Part shown: one piece after another, positions 43,274 to 52,092 of the stretch
Numbering within the stretch: the first letter of the stretch is position 1
Layout of the letters: each line of letters begins with the position of its first letter
Assembly: GCA_026129465.1 (NCBI GenBank)
Contig: JAHCIA010000001.1
Location: 1,435,964-1,499,963 of the forward strand
Direction: 5' to 3'
Source of the DNA: Flavobacteriales bacterium
Lineage (GTDB): Bacteria; Bacteroidota; Bacteroidia; Flavobacteriales_F; PHOS-HE28
DNA length: 64,000 bases
Notes under the pieces: model-generated
Databases searched by the model: none
What the model saw: the letters and a program-made list of their open reading frames with translations, nothing else
Told to the model about the DNA's origin: nothing
Position numbers and translations under genes: made by a program

Positions 43274-44641
43274 TCAAGCTTGTTGGGGCCGCGACCCAAG
43301 TGGCGGAGGTTCCTCCTCGGCGGAGATTTCTTCCACATCGTCCACCAAGGGATCCGCTCCCAACGCGATCTCCTCCTCAGAGATCATCGTCATGATGATG
43401 AGGAGCATGATGGTGTAGGGGTTCAGCGAACCCACGAGCCAGGATTCGTACGTGATGGAGAACAGGGTGGCGAACATCACCGCGATGGCCATGCCCGTGA
43501 GCTTGCTGGCCTTGATGAAGAGCAGGATGAAACTGCGGAAGAAGATGATGATGCCGATGAGGCCCACATTGAACCACATGCTCAAATAGCTGTTGTGCAC
43601 CCCACCCTGGTGGCCCATCTTCTCCAAATAGCTGTATCGGCTGCGCATAACGAATTCATCGTTGGCCCAGCCCCCCCCGAAGAAATAGTAGGGCTGGAGT
43701 TTGCGCCAGGCGAACTCCCAGGCGAAATAGCGGCCACTACCTTCTTCCAAGGTCTGCAGGCGGAAATACTTCTCCAGACCCAGCGAGGTGATGATGGCCC
43801 CGAGATTGGAGGTCACCACCTCCACCACGCCCACTGAGGCGATCAGCACCACAAAACCCAGGAAGGGCGAGTATGCGAAGAAGCGCGATATCACCAGGAA
43901 GATGGCCACCGCCGCCAGCGATGCCCTTGAACCACTCAGGATGAGGCTGTAGATGATCACCCCATAGATGATGATCTTCTCGGTGGTGGAGAACAGGTCC
44001 CGTCGGATGTGCGTGACCGTGGCCATGAGCATGAAGGACAGGAAACAGAAGATGGCCACGCCGTTGGGATTGCCGAACAGCCCATGGAAACGTCCGGCCA
44101 CATAAGCGAGCCTGAAATCCACGTAGCGCAGCAGGATGCCGATCGCGAGCAGCGTCACCGCCAGGAAGACCAGGTTGCGGAAGAAGCTCCAGCCCTGTGA
44201 ACGGAAGTTGTACATCACGTAGTTGGGCACGATCAGGAACATCAGGGCGTAGGAGATGGTCTTCTGCACCGAAGTGATGAGCGTGCTGGAAAAGACCAAA
44301 GGCAGGAAACTGAAAATGAAGAAGGGCAGGAAGATGGGGAACACGCGCGGATGCGGCCTGAAATCCTCACGACGCATCAGGAAGAACGCGAGCAGCAGCA
44401 ACACGCAGACGTTCTTCACGCTCTTGAAGACCAGCATGCCGTGGATATCCTTCCGCATATCCGACAGCACCAGGATCACCAACATGCCCATGAGGAGCTC
44501 GGGCCAGGCCTCGGCGCGGCGGAGCAGAATGAAGGTGAGCGGTATGATCGCAAACGCCAGCGGCCCCAGGAAGATGGAGGAGCCCACCCAGATGGCCGCC
44601 ATTATCAGCAGCTGTCTTTCATCGCGGATGAACTCGAGCAT
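43274..44641 (-). CDS. O-antigen polymerase/ligase-family membrane protein (Wzy/WaaL-like)
   Basis: 455 residues with about 11-12 transmembrane helices and an acidic, Pro-rich cytoplasmic tail (VDDVEEISAEEEPPPLG). The conserved Wzy_C region is visible: GRFHGLFGNPNGVA, then ILSGSRASLAA, and a large periplasmic loop after SGRYFAWEFAW with HNSYLSMWFNVGLIG. It would polymerise or ligate lipid-linked glycan repeats on the periplasmic side. It is tightly packed between two CotH-type genes (3 bases after one, 39 before the other), so the three probably function together. Confidence 0.88.
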   Translation of the reverse strand: MLEFIRDERQLLIMAAIWVGSSIFLGPLAFAIIPLTFILLRRAEAWPELLMGMLVILVLSDMRKDIHGMLVFKSVKNVCVLLLLAFFLMRREDFRPHPRVFPIFLPFFIFSFLPLVFSSTLITSVQKTISYALMFLIVPNYVMYNFRSQGWSFFRNLVFLAVTLLAIGILLRYVDFRLAYVAGRFHGLFGNPNGVAIFCFLSFMLMATVTHIRRDLFSTTEKIIIYGVIIYSLILSGSRASLAAVAIFLVISRFFAYSPFLGFVVLIASVGVVEVVTSNLGAIITSLGLEKYFRLQTLEEGSGRYFAWEFAWRKLQPYYFFGGGWANDEFVMRSRYSYLEKMGHQGGVHNSYLSMWFNVGLIGIIIFFRSFILLFIKASKLTGMAIAVMFATLFSITYESWLVGSLNPYTIMLLIIMTMISEEEIALGADPLVDDVEEISAEEEPPPLGSRPQQA

Positions 44642-44644
44642 CTC

Positions 44645-46303
44645 CTAGCCGTTGGACCCTGCATAGCCGCGCATACCGTCACGCACGGCCCGTTCACGCG
44701 CCTTCACAAAAGTGCGCAGTTCGTCCACATGGGTGTGCCATGTTTCGACGCTGGCGGGCTTGCGCCACCGGGCCGTGTGCCACCGCATCTCAGGGGCCAT
44801 GCGCCCGGCGAAGTGGTCCACCATCGCCAGCATGTTCTCCTTGGACAATGGCCCTTCCAGCAGCCGCTCCACGTGCCATTGGAAGCGCTCCCGTATGAAG
44901 GGATCACGCATCGCGCCGGTCCACAGGGCGGGCAGGGCGAATGCGCGCTGGTCCAATTGATGGAACAGCGGCGCGTTCGCCGGGGCGGTGGCCCCCATGG
45001 ACAGGTCCATGTCGTTCAGGATGAACCGCCAACGACCATCGGCCCTGCCCATTCCTGGCCCGCCGGCATGTCGCCACGCACGCACGTTGCGCAGGGGCCA
45101 ATCGCGCTGGCCGGTGATGATGCAGGCCGCCATGTAGGCCAGGAAGCTCTCCACATCCATCAACTCATTCAGCGCCTTGTACAGCGCTCCGGCGGAACGC
45201 GATGGACCCTTGGCGGTCTCCACCAACGCCTTGAAGCGGGCCACCTCTTCGGGGTCCCCATGGATGACGCCCAATTCCACCTCCACCATGCGCACCTTCT
45301 TCGCCTTCAGCCCGTGGCGGCGCGCGATTTCCTTCTCGTCGACACGTTGGCGGAGGTGGTGGATGCCCCAATAGCAACCGTTGATGTAGAGCACGGCCGT
45401 GCTGGCGCGCGATACCTCGAAGTCCTCCCCGGCACAGAGCTCATTCACCACCGCATCGCGCATCAGGGCCTTGATGCCGTCGTTGCCGCCGGGGCGCAGG
45501 ACAAGTGCCATGGCACCGGCCGGCTCCCCATCGCCGAACAATGGCGCGCGCAAGGGTCCAGCGAACACGAGCCGCAATGCACGCAACGGGAAGCCCCGGG
45601 TCATGTTGCCGTGGATGCGCACCCCCACCGGTCCTTGGTGGATCTCGCCGCCATCCGCACCGATGAACTGGACCAAGGCTCGCCGTTCCCAGGCTTTTCC
45701 GCGCCCTGAATAGTTGCCGGGATACTTCCACCAGCGTCCATCCTCCTTGTAGAGTGCGAGTTGGGGGCGGTGCGGAGCAAGCATGGCATTGCCCGGCACA
45801 TAGATGCCCGTGTCAGGATCGAACAAGGCACCTTCAGGCATCACCAGCGAAACCACAGGCAATACCCCATGATCGGCGAAGACCGTGGTGCGGAGCCTGA
45901 CCGGTCCCCGGCGGCCAAGGTCATCCTCTTCGGCCACGCGCACCACATGGGCCAAGGGCAGGCCGGGCAGTGGCCTGTTCCATTGCACGGCCGTGGGGGT
46001 GGCCAGCATTCGATCGGCGCGGCGGCGGTCGGGGTGTGGCACCAGGGAAAGCCGCGTGGAACGCATGTCGCGCAGTGGCGCATCGGGTCCTTCCGCCAGC
46101 CACAGGGCTCGCCCGCCGGTGCCTTGGATGCGGATGGTATCGCCTTCCTTCAAGTGGGCCGTTGGCGGGGTGATCACAGGCACTGGTCCATCACCGCGTT
46201 CGGTCACCACCCTCTCCGATCGTCCGGCCCAGGCCGCGAGCATACCGCTGGCCAGCACGGCGAGCAGCAGGCCAGCGAGGTCGGCTCGTTGCGGCGAGGA
46301 CAT
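44645..46303 (-). CDS. CotH-type kinase family protein, membrane-anchored
   Basis: 552 residues with an N-terminal membrane segment (~8-26). An initial beta-rich domain (~60-150) is followed by the CotH domain: LPVVSLVMPEGALFDPDTGIYV, KAWERRALVQFI, GPVGVRIHGNMTRGFPLRALRL, LYINGCYWGIHHLRQRVDE, then QRDWPLRNVRAWR and the metal-binding DMDLSMG. These catalytic-type Asp residues look intact, unlike in the 834-aa relative. CotH proteins phosphorylate surface proteins in spores; the role in non-sporulating bacteria is open. The start at 46303 is 2 bases after the upstream small membrane gene. Confidence 0.85.
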   Translation of the reverse strand: MSSPQRADLAGLLLAVLASGMLAAWAGRSERVVTERGDGPVPVITPPTAHLKEGDTIRIQGTGGRALWLAEGPDAPLRDMRSTRLSLVPHPDRRRADRMLATPTAVQWNRPLPGLPLAHVVRVAEEDDLGRRGPVRLRTTVFADHGVLPVVSLVMPEGALFDPDTGIYVPGNAMLAPHRPQLALYKEDGRWWKYPGNYSGRGKAWERRALVQFIGADGGEIHQGPVGVRIHGNMTRGFPLRALRLVFAGPLRAPLFGDGEPAGAMALVLRPGGNDGIKALMRDAVVNELCAGEDFEVSRASTAVLYINGCYWGIHHLRQRVDEKEIARRHGLKAKKVRMVEVELGVIHGDPEEVARFKALVETAKGPSRSAGALYKALNELMDVESFLAYMAACIITGQRDWPLRNVRAWRHAGGPGMGRADGRWRFILNDMDLSMGATAPANAPLFHQLDQRAFALPALWTGAMRDPFIRERFQWHVERLLEGPLSKENMLAMVDHFAGRMAPEMRWHTARWRKPASVETWHTHVDELRTFVKARERAVRDGMRGYAGSNG

Positions 46304-46305
46304 GC

Positions 46306-46701
46306 TCAGTTCGCCGGGCGGGCCCAACGCATCAGCACGATGAACGGGATGCCCAGTGCCATCGCCCCGATGGCCGATCCCGCACCACAAGCGGCACCCA
46401 AGAGCAGGGCACCAAGCAGTGGCAGGCGGTCGATCGTGGTGCGCTGTTCTCCGCGCGCCACCAGCACCACCGCCAGGAAGGCCACGGCCATGGGCAGATT
46501 GGTGCGCACGAACACCACGGCCAGGGCGCCCAAGGCGGCCCACACGGCCAGAACGCGCGATTCCGCCGCCGTGCCACGCGTTCCCGCACGGCCCAGCAGA
46601 TACCCGAGCAATGCGGCCACGAGCAAAGCGAATACGGCGTTGACCAACTGATGGGGCGCGAAGAAGCCCAGATGGTCCATCAACATGCCTTTGATGTTCA
46701 T
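46306..46701 (-). CDS. Small multi-pass membrane protein, possibly DUF4956-related
   Basis: 131 residues with four hydrophobic segments (~14-34, 45-63, 65-79 and 95-122). The FVRTNLPMAVAFLAVVLVARG region recalls the VRFRT..K...AFLF..IA segment of DUF4956 membrane proteins, which are often found next to CotH and VTC-type genes. The match is by eye only. First gene of a run leading into CotH, the polymerase, CotH/beta-helix and the phosphoesterase. A TACATTCG -7-like box is 18 bases upstream. Confidence 0.6.
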   Translation of the reverse strand: MNIKGMLMDHLGFFAPHQLVNAVFALLVAALLGYLLGRAGTRGTAAESRVLAVWAALGALAVVFVRTNLPMAVAFLAVVLVARGEQRTTIDRLPLLGALLLGAACGAGSAIGAMALGIPFIVLMRWARPAN

Positions 46702-46719
46702 GCGTCGATCATATGCCTG

Positions 46720-46727
46720 CGAATGTA
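46720..46727 (-). promoter_or_regulatory. Possible -7 element of the CotH-polymerase operon
   Basis: Minus strand TACATTCG, one mismatch from TAnnTTTG, 18 bases before the ATG at 46701. Divergent from the element at 46754. Confidence 0.35.
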
Positions 46728-46753
46728 GCCCGCCGCCCCACTTCGCTCGCGGG

Positions 46754-46761
46754 TATCTTTC
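46754..46761 (+). promoter_or_regulatory. Possible -7 element of the pyruvyltransferase-like gene
   Basis: TATCTTTC, one mismatch from TAnnTTTG, 7 bases before the ATG at 46769. Confidence 0.4.
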
Positions 46762-46768
46762 CCGCCCC

Positions 46769-47683
46769 ATGAAGCTTGTCTACCACGAGGGCCGCAACTT
46801 CGGCGACGCGCTCAACCCCTTGGTCTTCCGCGCGCTTTTCCCGGATCTCTTCGATGAGGACGAGCGGGTGCTCTTCATCGGGATCGGCTCTGTGATCGGC
46901 CTCAAGCATGGTGGCCCGTCCACGGAGCGGCGCATCTATTTCTCCAGTGGTTTCGCCGCCGGCGATCCACGCACATATGGCACCCTGCCCCGCCTCGGCC
47001 CCCTGGATGATGTGGTCTGCGTACGCGGCCCACTGACCGCGGAGGCACTGGGGCTCCCGCCTGCCAGGGCGATCGCCGACGGCGCGATACTTTACCCCCA
47101 TTTGTTCGCTGTACGGCCCAAGCCACGCCCCGGCACCGTGGCCTATGTGCCGCACGCAGGCAGCTTCGCCTTCTTCCAAGGCTGGCGAGAGCTGCTGGCC
47201 GAGGCGGGGATCGAGCTGATCGATCCGCGAGAGCCGCCACAAGACGTGATCGCACATATCGCCGGAGTGGAACTGCTCATCGCCGAAGCCATGCACGGCG
47301 CCATCCTCGCCGACGCCATCGGCATACCCTGGATCCCCGTGGCCGCCTACGGCACGATCAACGCCTTCAAATGGAGCGACTTCACGGCCTCCATGGGTCT
47401 GACATATGCGCCCGTGCATCTGCCCTCCCTCCACGACCGCGACTTCATCGGGCCGGTGATCAGAGCGCGACTTGGCCGCCTTGGGTTGGCCGCGCTGCAT
47501 GGCCCGGCGACCGATCTGCACGGCTGGCTCATGGGCGCTCCAGCACGTAGACGGTTGCTGCGCGGTTTGATGGCCTTGAAGAAAGATACCGGCCTGCTGA
47601 GCGATCGTGGTCTGTTGGCCCAGCGCGTGGATGCTCTGCTGGAGCGCGCGGAATACGTGCGTCGCACCTACGGTCGCCGGTAG
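46769..47683 (+). CDS. Polysaccharide pyruvyltransferase family protein
   Basis: 304 residues, no signal peptide. N-terminal NFGDALNPLVFRALF, FIGIGSVIG and FSSGFAAGDPRTYG, then VRGPLTAEALGLP, AIADGAILYPHLF and AEAMHGAILADAIGIPWIPV, which are landmarks of the CsaB/PssK-type pyruvyltransferase fold. It would add a pyruvate ketal to a sugar of the surface glycan; some members instead transfer sugars. Start 46769 discards an upstream extension through the divergent promoter region. Its 3' end overlaps the convergent GT4 gene by 16 bases. Confidence 0.82.
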   Translation: MKLVYHEGRNFGDALNPLVFRALFPDLFDEDERVLFIGIGSVIGLKHGGPSTERRIYFSSGFAAGDPRTYGTLPRLGPLDDVVCVRGPLTAEALGLPPARAIADGAILYPHLFAVRPKPRPGTVAYVPHAGSFAFFQGWRELLAEAGIELIDPREPPQDVIAHIAGVELLIAEAMHGAILADAIGIPWIPVAAYGTINAFKWSDFTASMGLTYAPVHLPSLHDRDFIGPVIRARLGRLGLAALHGPATDLHGWLMGAPARRRLLRGLMALKKDTGLLSDRGLLAQRVDALLERAEYVRRTYGRR

Positions 47684-48828
47684 CCCAGCGCTTCGTCATA
47701 CAGCGCTTCCAGCCGCCTGGCGCTTGCCTGCGGATCATGCATGGCGGTGATGCGCGCCAAGGCTCTCGCTGCTTTCGGCGCGATGGAACCCGGTGAAAGG
47801 AGGATGCCACCGATCACTTCCACCAGCGCATCATCCAGGTGCTTGGAGAAGACCTTGCGCGCCTCCACGGTGCGGATCCTGGCGAAGCCCAGGTCATCCT
47901 GTGCCACGGGGATGACCCACCCCTGCGTATCATCATTGATCTCGGGCATGGCGCGTATGTCGGTGGTCACCACCGGGCAACCACAGGCCTGGGCCTCCAG
48001 CACGGCATAGCCATAGGTCTCCGCCCAGGTGGGCAACAGGCCCACATGGGACCGCAGGAAAAGGTCAAGAACACCCTGGTTGGTCAGGCCGCGATGCAAT
48101 GTGACATGGTCCCCCAACCGGCTGATGACCGCCATGGCCTTGTTCCGGTCCTCTTCCGTGGAATGTGTGGCGTGGTCGCCGGTCTCCATGGCCGACACGA
48201 TGTTCAACTTCCAGTCGCGCAGGCCACGCTGGTGCAGCGCTTCAAAGGCCTGCAATATTTCCATGCCGCCCTTGCGGAAGAAATGCGCCCCCACGAAAGT
48301 GAAGACCACACCCTGCCCTATCGGCGGCTTCGCATGGCCCGGTGGCATCACCACCCGCTGGGGCGGATGCATCACCATGATCTTGGGCAACAGCGCATCC
48401 GCAAGATCCGGGACCTTCTCCGTGACATAGGCGCGCTGGATGGCGGCGGTGCGTTCGCTCAGTGCGATGAGCCGCTGGCAGGCCGGCCGCGACATCAGTT
48501 CCATGCCCCGGCGGACCGTGGCATCGGGCACATGGCCCCAGCGTGGCAGCCTGGTCTCGAAGGTGGTGAACCAGGGTTTGCGGCCATACGACAGGGCGTT
48601 GAAGAAATGGTACAGTGCGCAGGATGACAGATCCAGGTCGCGGAAGGAATTCAGATGCCGGTCCGGGATCCGGCCGGTGGCGCGGTGGGCCAACCAGGTG
48701 AAGACCCTGTGGACATCTGTGCGTTTGCGCACCGCGTAGCGTTCCAAGGGCAGACCGGCGAAGTTGCGCACCTCGGGATAGCCCAAGGCATTGGTGCCCA
48801 CAATGATCGGTCCTGTTCTATCCGGCAT
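47668..48828 (-). CDS. GT4-family glycosyltransferase
   Basis: 386 residues, GT-B fold. The C-terminal nucleotide-sugar domain is clear: VFTFVGAHFFRKGGMEIL, LHRGLTNQGVLDLFLRSHVGLLPTWAETYGYAVLEAQACGCPVVTTD, with the EX7E motif at ETYGYAVLE. The start is set at the ATG at 48828 because a perfect -7 element (48838-48845) lies inside the longer frame that begins at 48852. Donor and acceptor unknown. Divergent from the 48880-52092 operon. Confidence 0.88.
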   Translation of the reverse strand: MPDRTGPIIVGTNALGYPEVRNFAGLPLERYAVRKRTDVHRVFTWLAHRATGRIPDRHLNSFRDLDLSSCALYHFFNALSYGRKPWFTTFETRLPRWGHVPDATVRRGMELMSRPACQRLIALSERTAAIQRAYVTEKVPDLADALLPKIMVMHPPQRVVMPPGHAKPPIGQGVVFTFVGAHFFRKGGMEILQAFEALHQRGLRDWKLNIVSAMETGDHATHSTEEDRNKAMAVISRLGDHVTLHRGLTNQGVLDLFLRSHVGLLPTWAETYGYAVLEAQACGCPVVTTDIRAMPEINDDTQGWVIPVAQDDLGFARIRTVEARKVFSKHLDDALVEVIGGILLSPGSIAPKAARALARITAMHDPQASARRLEALYDEALGYRRP

Positions 48829-48837
48829 GCCCGGCGG

Positions 48838-48845
48838 CAAACCTA
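48838..48845 (-). promoter_or_regulatory. -7 element of the GT4 gene at 47668-48828
   Basis: Minus strand TAGGTTTG, exact TAnnTTTG match, 9 bases before the ATG at 48828. It decides the start choice. Confidence 0.6.
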
Positions 48846-48865
48846 ATCCCACAGGTGCGTGTCAC

Positions 48866-48879: not shown

Positions 48880-49767
48880 ATGTTCCGAGTCGCGCTGCCG
48901 CCGATCCTGGCCCTGCTCTCCATCGGCTTGTCGGCACAACCGATGGGGCTGGCGGGAGGCGCACTGATCGTGGGCGAGGATACGCGCGTCACCTTGGACG
49001 GTCCGATCACCTGGAGCATCGGAACCGGTGCGCAATTGATCAATGACGGACTGATCGACCTGGGTTTGCAGGCCACCTTGGCCGAAGCCGAGGGATCCCC
49101 GATCACAGGGCTTGGAATGGAACGCGCCGAACGGGTGTTCTCCACCCCTTTCCCTTTCACCGATCCCGGTGGCTTGGGCCTGACCATGGCCTGCCTGCAA
49201 GCCGTGGGGCCGCTGGTATTGTACCGTGGCCATCAACCCATCGTGGTGGATGATGAGAATGAGAGCATCGCACGCTGGTACAGCATCGATGCGGCCCCGC
49301 AGACCGGCGCTTTCCTGGATCTCTATCTCAACTACGACCCAAGCGAGTTGAATGGACTCGATCCATCGACCCTGATGTTGCATGGCAGCATCGGCACCGA
49401 TGGGCCATGGAGTCAATTGGGCGGCGGCCCTGTGGCGCAGCCCAACACGGTGGCGGCCTGGTACTACTCCCCTTGGGACATCGTCACCGCTTTCCACTTC
49501 GACCTGGTGACCATCACGCCCGATGGACCGGAACAAGCCGGGCCGCGCATTTGGCCCACGCTCGCGGATGACCATGTGAACGTGGAGTTTTCGGGGGAGG
49601 AGATACGAGGCCTTGATGTTCTCGATGCAGCGGGCCGCATCGTTGCCGATCGGCCGGCCCTGTCGCCGGGCGCCACCCGCATGGTGCTGCCGGTGGCGCA
49701 TTTGACCCCTGGCGCCTACACGCTGCGCATCAACGGACGACACACCGCACGTTTCGTGAAACGATGA
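48880..49767 (+). CDS. Secreted protein with T9SS type A sorting domain, first gene of the tandem-paralogue operon
   Basis: 295 residues with a signal peptide (~1-20, ...IGLSAQ). The N-terminal region reads like an unadorned beta-solenoid or sandwich (GGALIVGEDTRVTLDG, GAQLINDGLIDLG), then a region with DLYLNYDPSELNGLD. The last 70 residues (WPTLADDHVNVEF, LTPGAYTLRINGRHTARFVKR) are a T9SS type A domain. No family is recognised for the body. The TGA overlaps the ATG of the next gene (49764-49767), so it is translationally linked to the three paralogues. The ATG at 48880 is preferred to a GTG at 48859. Confidence 0.82.
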   Translation: MFRVALPPILALLSIGLSAQPMGLAGGALIVGEDTRVTLDGPITWSIGTGAQLINDGLIDLGLQATLAEAEGSPITGLGMERAERVFSTPFPFTDPGGLGLTMACLQAVGPLVLYRGHQPIVVDDENESIARWYSIDAAPQTGAFLDLYLNYDPSELNGLDPSTLMLHGSIGTDGPWSQLGGGPVAQPNTVAAWYYSPWDIVTAFHFDLVTITPDGPEQAGPRIWPTLADDHVNVEFSGEEIRGLDVLDAAGRIVADRPALSPGATRMVLPVAHLTPGAYTLRINGRHTARFVKR

Positions 49768-50552
49768 GCCGCCATTGGACATATCTGGCCCTGATCGCCT
49801 CCATCGCCACACAGGCGCAATGGGATGTACCGGTGCGGTTGGTGCTCGAAGGTCCGGAGGCCGGCGACAGGCAGGTGACCGGCCTGGCGGATCCGCAGCA
49901 GCGCGATGCCGCGGTAAGCCTGGAAGCCGCAAGGGTGAATGTGCTGACCCATGCGTCAGGTACAGGGAGTACCGGGATCACTGCCCAGCTTCCCGTGACG
50001 CCGGATACTTACGTGAACGGCATGGTGATCACCCTTGTGCCGGACACCGCCAACGTCGCGGGTGCCACGCTGGACCTCAATGGTCTTGGTGCCGTTCCCA
50101 TCCTGCGCCGCAACGGCCAGCAAGTGCAGGCCGGTGATCTGTGGGCCGGTGCACCCGTACGGCTCGCATTCAGTGATGGTGCCTTTCGCATCATCTCCGA
50201 TATGCCCACGCCATGCCCGCCAGCCTTTTCCGTGGGTGGAACGCACTACTGCATCGCGGACACCTCCCAAGCCCCGGTCCCCTTTCTGCAGGCCAATCTC
50301 ATTTGCGACCAGCAGGGCGCCCGCCTCTGCACCTTTTGGGAGTGGGTGAACCGTTGTCTGGCCGACCCGCAATTCTTCAACAGCGTGCCTGATTTCGAAT
50401 GGGTGGACCATGCCTCCAACAGTGGTGACCAGGCCAAACGCCTGGGCTATGGCAGCAATGGCGTGAACGCCGATCCCGGGCAGGGCTGCAACTACGGCGG
50501 CACCCAGGTACACACCAACCCCAGCCGATTCCGATGCTGCAAGGACCGCTGA
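49764..50552 (+). CDS. Tandem paralogue A: fibre-like plus Cys-rich FGE/lectin-like secreted protein
   Basis: 262 residues with a signal peptide (~1-18, ...ATQAQ). Residues ~85-145 resemble a small beta domain common in phage tail-fibre proteins: GMVITLVPDTANVAGATLDLNGLGAVPI, then QAGDLWAGAPVRLAFSDGAFRI. Residues ~151-262 form a Cys-rich domain (HYCIADT, ICDQQGARLCTFWEWVNRC, FEWVDH, GCNYGG, RFRCCKDR). The GxRLCxWxE and terminal RCC pattern recall the formylglycine-generating-enzyme/C-type-lectin fold, here too short to be a full enzyme. No T9SS domain, so export beyond the periplasm is unclear. Function unknown. Confidence 0.8.
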   Translation: MSRHWTYLALIASIATQAQWDVPVRLVLEGPEAGDRQVTGLADPQQRDAAVSLEAARVNVLTHASGTGSTGITAQLPVTPDTYVNGMVITLVPDTANVAGATLDLNGLGAVPILRRNGQQVQAGDLWAGAPVRLAFSDGAFRIISDMPTPCPPAFSVGGTHYCIADTSQAPVPFLQANLICDQQGARLCTFWEWVNRCLADPQFFNSVPDFEWVDHASNSGDQAKRLGYGSNGVNADPGQGCNYGGTQVHTNPSRFRCCKDR

Positions 50553-51313
50553 GGCATATCGCGATCTTGCCAGGCCTGTCGTTGGCCTTCGCCCTGCAGG
50601 CGCAGGTGGCCGTGGACGTGCCCCTGCGATTCACAGGGGGTGGATCGGATCGAAGTATCGACACGCTTGCCGCCCCGGTGGGGCAGACCTCCGCGATCAC
50701 CGTGATGCATGCGGCCACCGGTGCCTCGAACTGGGGCACGGCCACGCTGCAAGGGCAGGTCCTGCAACTGACCACAACACCTTCCGGCGGTCCGCTGCGC
50801 GAGGGGCTCCTGCTTCGTTTCCTGGCCCCGGCCAATGCCCATGGCATCCTGTCCATCAACCTCGATGGGGCCGGGGCCATACCCTTGCGCCGGCCCGATG
50901 GGCTGTGGCCCGCGAAAGGCCAGATCGTACAAGGTGCGGTGGTGGAGGTGGTCTATGAGAACGAAGGGTTCGTCCTGCTCGCACCGGTATCGACAGGCTG
51001 CCCGCCAGGCACGGTGCAGGTCACAGGGGGGTTCTGCATCGACACCTCCGATGCACCGGGATTCAATTTCTATACGGCCACCGAATACTGCGCAAGGACC
51101 GGCGGCAGGCTTTGCAAATGGGACGAGTACTATGCCGCTTGCATGATGGTACAGGGGCAGTTGAGCGGGCTGTTCAATGGCTGGGAATGGATCGACGACA
51201 CTTCGGACCACTCCCAGACCGCGGACCAATGCGGCAACAACACCTGCGAAAGCCAGCGCTCGACCGGGCCCATGACCAACTCCCAAGTGCGTTGCTGTTA
51301 CACCCTGCGATGA
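50534..51313 (+). CDS. Tandem paralogue B: fibre-like plus Cys-rich FGE/lectin-like secreted protein
   Basis: 259 residues with a signal peptide (~1-23, ...FALQAQ). Same two-part layout as paralogue A: LLLRFLAPANAHGILSINLDGAGAIPL with YENEGFVLL (~90-150), then FCIDTSDAPGFNFYTATEYCARTGGRLCKWDEYYAAC, WEWIDDTSD, QCGNNTC and RCCYTLR (~155-259). Identity with A and C is low outside the Cys and Trp positions, so the family is old. It overlaps the end of A by 19 bases; its stop overlaps the start of C by 4. Confidence 0.8.
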   Translation: MLQGPLRHIAILPGLSLAFALQAQVAVDVPLRFTGGGSDRSIDTLAAPVGQTSAITVMHAATGASNWGTATLQGQVLQLTTTPSGGPLREGLLLRFLAPANAHGILSINLDGAGAIPLRRPDGLWPAKGQIVQGAVVEVVYENEGFVLLAPVSTGCPPGTVQVTGGFCIDTSDAPGFNFYTATEYCARTGGRLCKWDEYYAACMMVQGQLSGLFNGWEWIDDTSDHSQTADQCGNNTCESQRSTGPMTNSQVRCCYTLR

Positions 51314-52092
51314 GGACGATCGGGCATATCCTGCTTGCGGCCGGGCTGCTCGGATGCGGCACCGCTTGCGCCCAAGTGCGCGTGGACCGTGCCGTCACCC
51401 TGACCGGGACGCTCACTGAAGATCGCCAGGTTCTGGGACTGCCTGCCAGCACCTCACCCTGGCGCGTGTTGAGCGCCGCCACGGAACAGGATGGAACGCA
51501 CCGCTTCGCCGATCCGGTAGCGGGTGCCGTGTGGCAGGCCGAAGTGCCCTCCCTGCCCGAAGGACCTGTGGTGGGCACCCAGCTCATCATCCGGGCACCC
51601 GGGCCATTGAAGACCCAGGTGCAACTGCAGGTGAACGGCCTTGGCCCCTTCCCACTCACGTTGCAGGGTCAGGTTCCCTTCACGGGTGAAGCGCTCAGTG
51701 AAGGCGAACCGCTCTCCCTGGTGTTCGATGGGACCGGATTCCAAGTGCTGAATGGCACCTTACGAACGCTACGAGCTTGCCCGGACGACATGGTGGCGGT
51801 GAACGACGCGTACTGCATCGACCAGGTGCAACATGCGACGGCCTTCTGGTACGATGCGGTGCTCGCCTGCGCCAGCGAAGGCAAGCGTTTGTGCTCCTGG
51901 GGCGAATTCTACGTGGCCTGCACCTATCGCGAAGAGTTGGGCGTGCCCGATCTCTTCGGCGATTCGGAATGGACCAACAACACGGCGAACTTCTCCAATG
52001 TGGTGCGCGTGGTGGGTGCCTTTTGCCAAGGCGCGGGAGCAGCCACCACCACGTCGACACCCCGCGCCTATCACTGCTGTCTCACCCGTTGA
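51310..52092 (+). CDS. Tandem paralogue C: fibre-like plus Cys-rich FGE/lectin-like secreted protein
   Basis: 260 residues. The N-terminus allows two readings: a lipoprotein with LLGC (Cys16) or a secreted protein cut after ACAQ. Next comes the fibre-like beta region (TQLIIRAPGPLKTQVQLQVNGLGPFPL, FDGTGFQVLNG), then the Cys-rich domain (YCIDQVQHATAFWYDAVLACASEGKRLCSWGEFYVAC, DSEWTNNTAN, YHCCLTR). The start at 51310 overlaps the stop of B (ATGA). Last gene of the operon; it converges on a GT4 gene with an 11-base overlap of 3' ends. Confidence 0.8.
   Translation: MRTIGHILLAAGLLGCGTACAQVRVDRAVTLTGTLTEDRQVLGLPASTSPWRVLSAATEQDGTHRFADPVAGAVWQAEVPSLPEGPVVGTQLIIRAPGPLKTQVQLQVNGLGPFPLTLQGQVPFTGEALSEGEPLSLVFDGTGFQVLNGTLRTLRACPDDMVAVNDAYCIDQVQHATAFWYDAVLACASEGKRLCSWGEFYVACTYREELGVPDLFGDSEWTNNTANFSNVVRVVGAFCQGAGAATTTSTPRAYHCCLTR

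Follow-up and report, generated by a model that had tools for sequence, protein, structure and literature searches.

Three paralogues predicted to be secreted, chains A, B, and C, encoded behind a partner gene, g1, in the window (the whole 64,000-nucleotide stretch of Flavobacteriales DNA analyzed), likely form one short 1:1:1 heterotrimeric surface fiber bearing three different predicted C-type-lectin heads; we put the probability of this reading at roughly 0.55. The heterotrimer is favored because the genes occur in 1:1:1 content and fixed order, their frames overlap, the triplet appears to have been duplicated as a unit, and relatives of its domains have been solved as trimers. The first-pass annotation had described an overlapping four-gene operon with three tandem secreted paralogues, a description that is confirmed (Table 1); its reading of them as surface recognition or attachment proteins carried by a T9SS partner in a glycan locus is partly supported.

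Table 1. Operon and neighboring features, in window coordinates.
Feature	Position	Strand	Description
Four-gene operon	48880..52092	+	g1, then chains A, B, C; reading frames overlap
g1	48880..49767	+	N-terminal beta-rich region restricted to this operon; C-terminal T9SS sorting domain, residues ~220-295
Chain A	49764..50552	+	262 aa; signal peptide; fiber-like domain (RQVTGLADP...DAA, LNGLGA); C-type-lectin-like head by homology to B
Chain B	50534..51313	+	259 aa; signal peptide; fiber-like domain, residues ~46-150; C-type-lectin-like head, ~154-259
Chain C	51310..52092	+	260 aa; signal peptide; fiber-like domain (VNGLGP); C-type-lectin-like head by homology to B
CotH kinase-family protein	44645..46372	-	Start uncertain; divergent from operon, largely co-inherited with it
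O-antigen ligase/polymerase (Wzy_C)	43274..44641	-	Member of flanking polysaccharide locus; relatives in 21/34 loci
Small membrane-like protein (by eye)	46306..46770	-	Without Pfam match; relatives in 24/34 loci

The head, about 105 residues long, finds its top match by both sequence and fold in the tip of the adhesin Bd2740 (PDB 8oks), followed by Lcl and C-type lectins. Structure prediction and a fold search run on B (AlphaFold single-chain model) give its C-terminal domain a C-type lectin-like fold, which the heads of A and C are predicted to share. The phage-fiber-like domain proposed for the paralogues is substantiated by a match of the fiber part to the tail fiber gp47 of Pseudomonas phage Pa193 (PDB 9b45) over a short stretch, profile positions 46-145 (E 2.4e-9). 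Relatives of the fiber domain and of the head have both been solved as trimers. The head had been labeled "FGE/C-type-lectin-like" from sequence; the lectin half of that label stands, given the predicted fold of B and the Bd2740 and Lcl matches, and the FGE half falls away, since no FGE-sulfatase domain is among the Pfam matches listed for the four operon proteins at E up to 10, nor, with E up to 0.001, among those for the 29 A2 members. That a ~105-residue head with these best matches is a degenerate formylglycine-generating-type enzyme is very improbable.

Homologues of ABC, fragments included, occur in 31 of the 45 genomes of the genus. The window's own genome carries only the three copies seen here, and the 31 positive genomes hold three (17 genomes), six (9), five (3), four (1), or two (1). 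Their 47 array pieces comprise 33 complete A-B-C triplets, 12 contig-cut but compatible pieces (ten flagged as cut, two, G001a and G391a, judged so from coordinates), and 2 exceptions; thus 33 of 35 uncut arrays contain exactly one A, one B, and one C in constant order, and the possibility that homologues never stand in tandem is disposed of. The sole split-triplet locus (L042, in G029), with A-C and B-C about 10 kb apart, may reflect rearrangement or assembly error. A protein tree of 78 of the 82 sequences (four fragments were dropped, and three hits from outside the genus left out) resolves into three clades (26, 25, and 27 rows), all supported by a bootstrap of 100, that agree with triplet position when contig-cut arrays are allowed for. 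Class profiles sorted eight loci from genomes outside profile building without conflict. Three database searches yielded 107 homologues (the 27 B chains among them count the window's own P0005), and the profiles assigned every one to a class with a margin of 60 bits or more. Judged by their sequences, A, B, and C are three fixed chain classes.

In four genomes with two triplets each (G034, G017, G012, and G001), first and second triplets cluster apart inside every class, which argues that the triplet was duplicated there as a unit. These regularities bear on the main alternative, in which each chain forms a homotrimeric adhesin with a ligand of its own and the three, co-expressed, are retained together for complementary functions. 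The described relatives that combine this head fold with a trimer of their own, Bd2740 and Lcl, are homotrimers, and class-specific residues could mirror different ligands; independent adhesins, however, would be expected to be gained, lost, and reordered singly, yet all but two uncut arrays are uniform and whole triplets have been duplicated, and we consider separate homotrimers rather unlikely. A swap test over six two-triplet genomes (64 pairings) ranked the observed pairing first only for A-C, second for A-B, and fourth for B-C, with better-scoring pairings exchanging G213, or G213 and G418. The trees of A, B, and C run parallel (Mantel r 0.77-0.79), as would be expected of any linked genes.

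One head position is nearly class-diagnostic. At the site of B residue 231, genus sequences (truncated ones and the near-copy G417 dropped) have Lys in 39/39 A chains and Arg in 38/38 C chains, and the 36 B chains have Asp (15), Asn (12), Val (7), Thr (1), or Leu (1). The database set, which may overlap the genus set, gives Lys in 48/48 A, Arg in 31/32 C (P0111 has Gln), and Asp (19), Asn (4), or Val (4) in 27 B. The window's own A, B, and C carry Lys, Asp, and Arg, respectively; of two heads read from outside the genus, one has Lys and the other His.

The heads are conserved and under purifying selection, not diversified. Among four close species (G008, G033, G025, and G026), head dN is 0.03-0.15 versus dS of 0.15-1.63, and fiber dN, at 0.11-0.36, exceeds that of the head in 17 of 18 comparisons. 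A search for the reverse transcriptase family RVT_1 (PF00078) gave no match in the window's own genome and was positive in 3 of 14 control genomes. Both results run counter to the first-pass hint of diversified ligand binding, for which hypervariable positions between strains and a reverse transcriptase had been the proposed signs. A diversified array in the style of Mtd of Bordetella phage, which is DGR-diversified, or of other DGR variable proteins is already largely refuted.

The partner gene suggests a possible route of export. A C-terminal T9SS sorting domain is matched in g1, with the CTD fold also predicted in an AlphaFold single-chain model; none is among the Pfam and NCBIfam matches listed for A, B, and C at E up to 10, and the lectin head is the end of each chain. 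A T9SS is expected throughout the genus since SprA_N is found in 45/45 genomes. In accord with the T9SS-type partner proposed earlier, 29 of 31 ABC-positive but 1 of 14 ABC-negative genomes carry a homologue of g1 (best match E < 1e-30), the 15 genomes without one showing sorting-domain matches alone (1e-9 to 1e-13), and a neighborhood survey found gene order with g1 largely kept across the genus. The g1 profile gives at least 51-55 matches in each of the 45 genomes, and the listed non-g1 ones cover mainly the sorting domain. In G022 and G027, g1 lies in pieces at contig ends. Two ABC-positive genomes are g1-negative: in G024 the contig carrying ABC breaks off within B, and in G019 ABC is present with no g1. 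Conversely, G030 has g1 with a GT2-like glycosyltransferase gene at the expected ABC place (L108). The second triplet of G418, ~14 kb past the first, has no g1 of its own, and an A-B piece in G011 (L052) has none upstream though its contig continues. With G019, G030, and the second triplets of G418 and G011 as exceptions, the link between g1 and ABC is not absolute.

Because the sorting-domain match is confined to g1 and A, B, and C end in lectin heads, g1 is likely their carrier or surface anchor. We posit that signal peptides would take the three chains into the periplasm and that overlapping frames would have them synthesized jointly; that the fiber domains would trimerize like phage and MAT fibers, with A, B, and C in non-equivalent positions; and that g1 would either ferry the trimer over the outer membrane or anchor it there. 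A larger mixed assembly of A, B, C, and g1, such as a polymer or ring, would be consistent with four genes in a single overlapping operon, with the largely shared inheritance of g1 and ABC, and with a g1 N-terminal region that has no assigned fold; the solved trimers among fiber-domain and head relatives argue against it, and we hold it to be quite improbable.

For the proposed heterotrimeric fiber, the flanking genes suggest a ligand. Of 34 loci, 24 have the small membrane-like protein in their flanks, 23 have CotH, and 21 a Wzy_C-like gene, with glycosyltransferases and epimerases around them, and the glycan-locus setting recognized at first reading is confirmed. The interval from the small membrane-like gene to g1 (window 46685-48852) holds a pyruvyl transferase and a glycosyltransferase gene, and the same pair precedes g1 at L108 of G030, where the flanks are similar to those of the window; the distance from the small gene to g1 has a median ~2 kb shorter than the window's over the 24 loci with that gene. 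The heads would bind a lineage-constant glycan, most plausibly the polysaccharide of the surrounding locus, in cell or matrix attachment, rather than a prey or host target that changes quickly; the conserved heads and the locus both agree with an unvarying ligand, for example polysaccharide of the cell itself. The flanking CotH, Wzy_C, and small membrane-like genes span window 43274-46770, and the location of a CotH kinase in a polysaccharide locus gives a lead on its phosphorylation target.

The CotH-family protein (E < 1e-60) is present in 29/31 ABC-positive and 0/14 ABC-negative genomes; in the positive genomes G024 and G009 it was not found anywhere in the genome, and the ABC contig stops before the CotH place. 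G420 has a partial CotH match at a contig end, and the start of L108 resembles, by eye, the N-terminal part of CotH. Fisher's p, which ignores kinship, is ~2e-8 for g1 with ABC, and equal for CotH if G420 is counted as present. On a marker tree of the single gene SprA_N (44/45 genomes), five changes are required to account for the absence of ABC: one covers a clade of 10 genomes, and the other four are single absences, of which G003, G030, and G420 are incomplete genomes and G016 is a complete one. About two firm losses therefore underlie the co-occurrence.

A class-wide sample of 395 genomes, with up to six candidates scored in each, gave matches in at least 36, of which 11 belong to the genus. 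Each of the remaining 25 has at least one or two matches to the head or fiber part, in ORFs that are 214 to 2603 residues long; in G332 the match spans both parts. Outside the genus, L054 is a 748-residue ORF joining NVGIGT-type fiber repeats to the same head, L055 (G057, ~2-949) combines collagen-like GPTGAQGIQGIT repeats with the same head in an Lcl-like layout, and L056 has the fiber part alone. In light of these ORFs, one-gene fibers elsewhere and a three-class split in this genus would be the simplest history, with a direction that we infer from the sampled genera.

Tip and shaft are of known kinds. The main text on the MATs of Bdellovibrio describes single-gene chains, typically of ~1,000 residues, and in Bd2740 a homotrimer with a C-type-lectin-fold tip (PMC10769870); the word "heterotrimer" is absent from that main text. 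A, B, and C share the fiber-like shaft, through the short gp47 match, and a homologous C-terminal tip, but are 259-262-residue chains of fixed class from three genes, accompanied by a T9SS-tagged partner and lacking a long shaft. Legionella Lcl (PDB 8q4e), in the passages of PMC11162425 that describe it, is a single protein forming a homotrimer on a collagen-like stalk and is referred to as a T2SS substrate, whereas here there are three chains. Pa193 gp47 is homologous to the fiber part but is a viral one-gene fiber of 962 residues, and the lectin head lies outside the match. In C1q and other A/B/C heterotrimers, three paralogous chains make a single trimer with three different heads. The likeness to C1q is one of analogy: the proposed fiber shares the three-chain plan, whereas C1q heads and stalk differ. 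On that analogy, an obligate A:B:C lectin fiber built from phage-fiber parts and exported through the T9SS by g1, the sole bearer of a sorting tag, is a tentative proposal to which we give slightly less than even odds. The first-pass remark that no described system has this composition holds, within the open-licence PMC literature searched, for the three-class make-up with a T9SS partner, of which no account was found there, and fails for tip and shaft; what is new is the three-class, probably heterotrimeric make-up with that partner.

A system of three fixed classes would reveal how a homotrimeric fiber turns asymmetric, with B231 (Lys in A, Asp, Asn, or Val in B, Arg in C) as the first site to consider, and it would also pose the problem of how untagged chains exit alongside one that bears a T9SS sorting tag. 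Because genomes of one genus naturally carry, lack, or double the whole triplet, the questions of asymmetry and of export are both testable.
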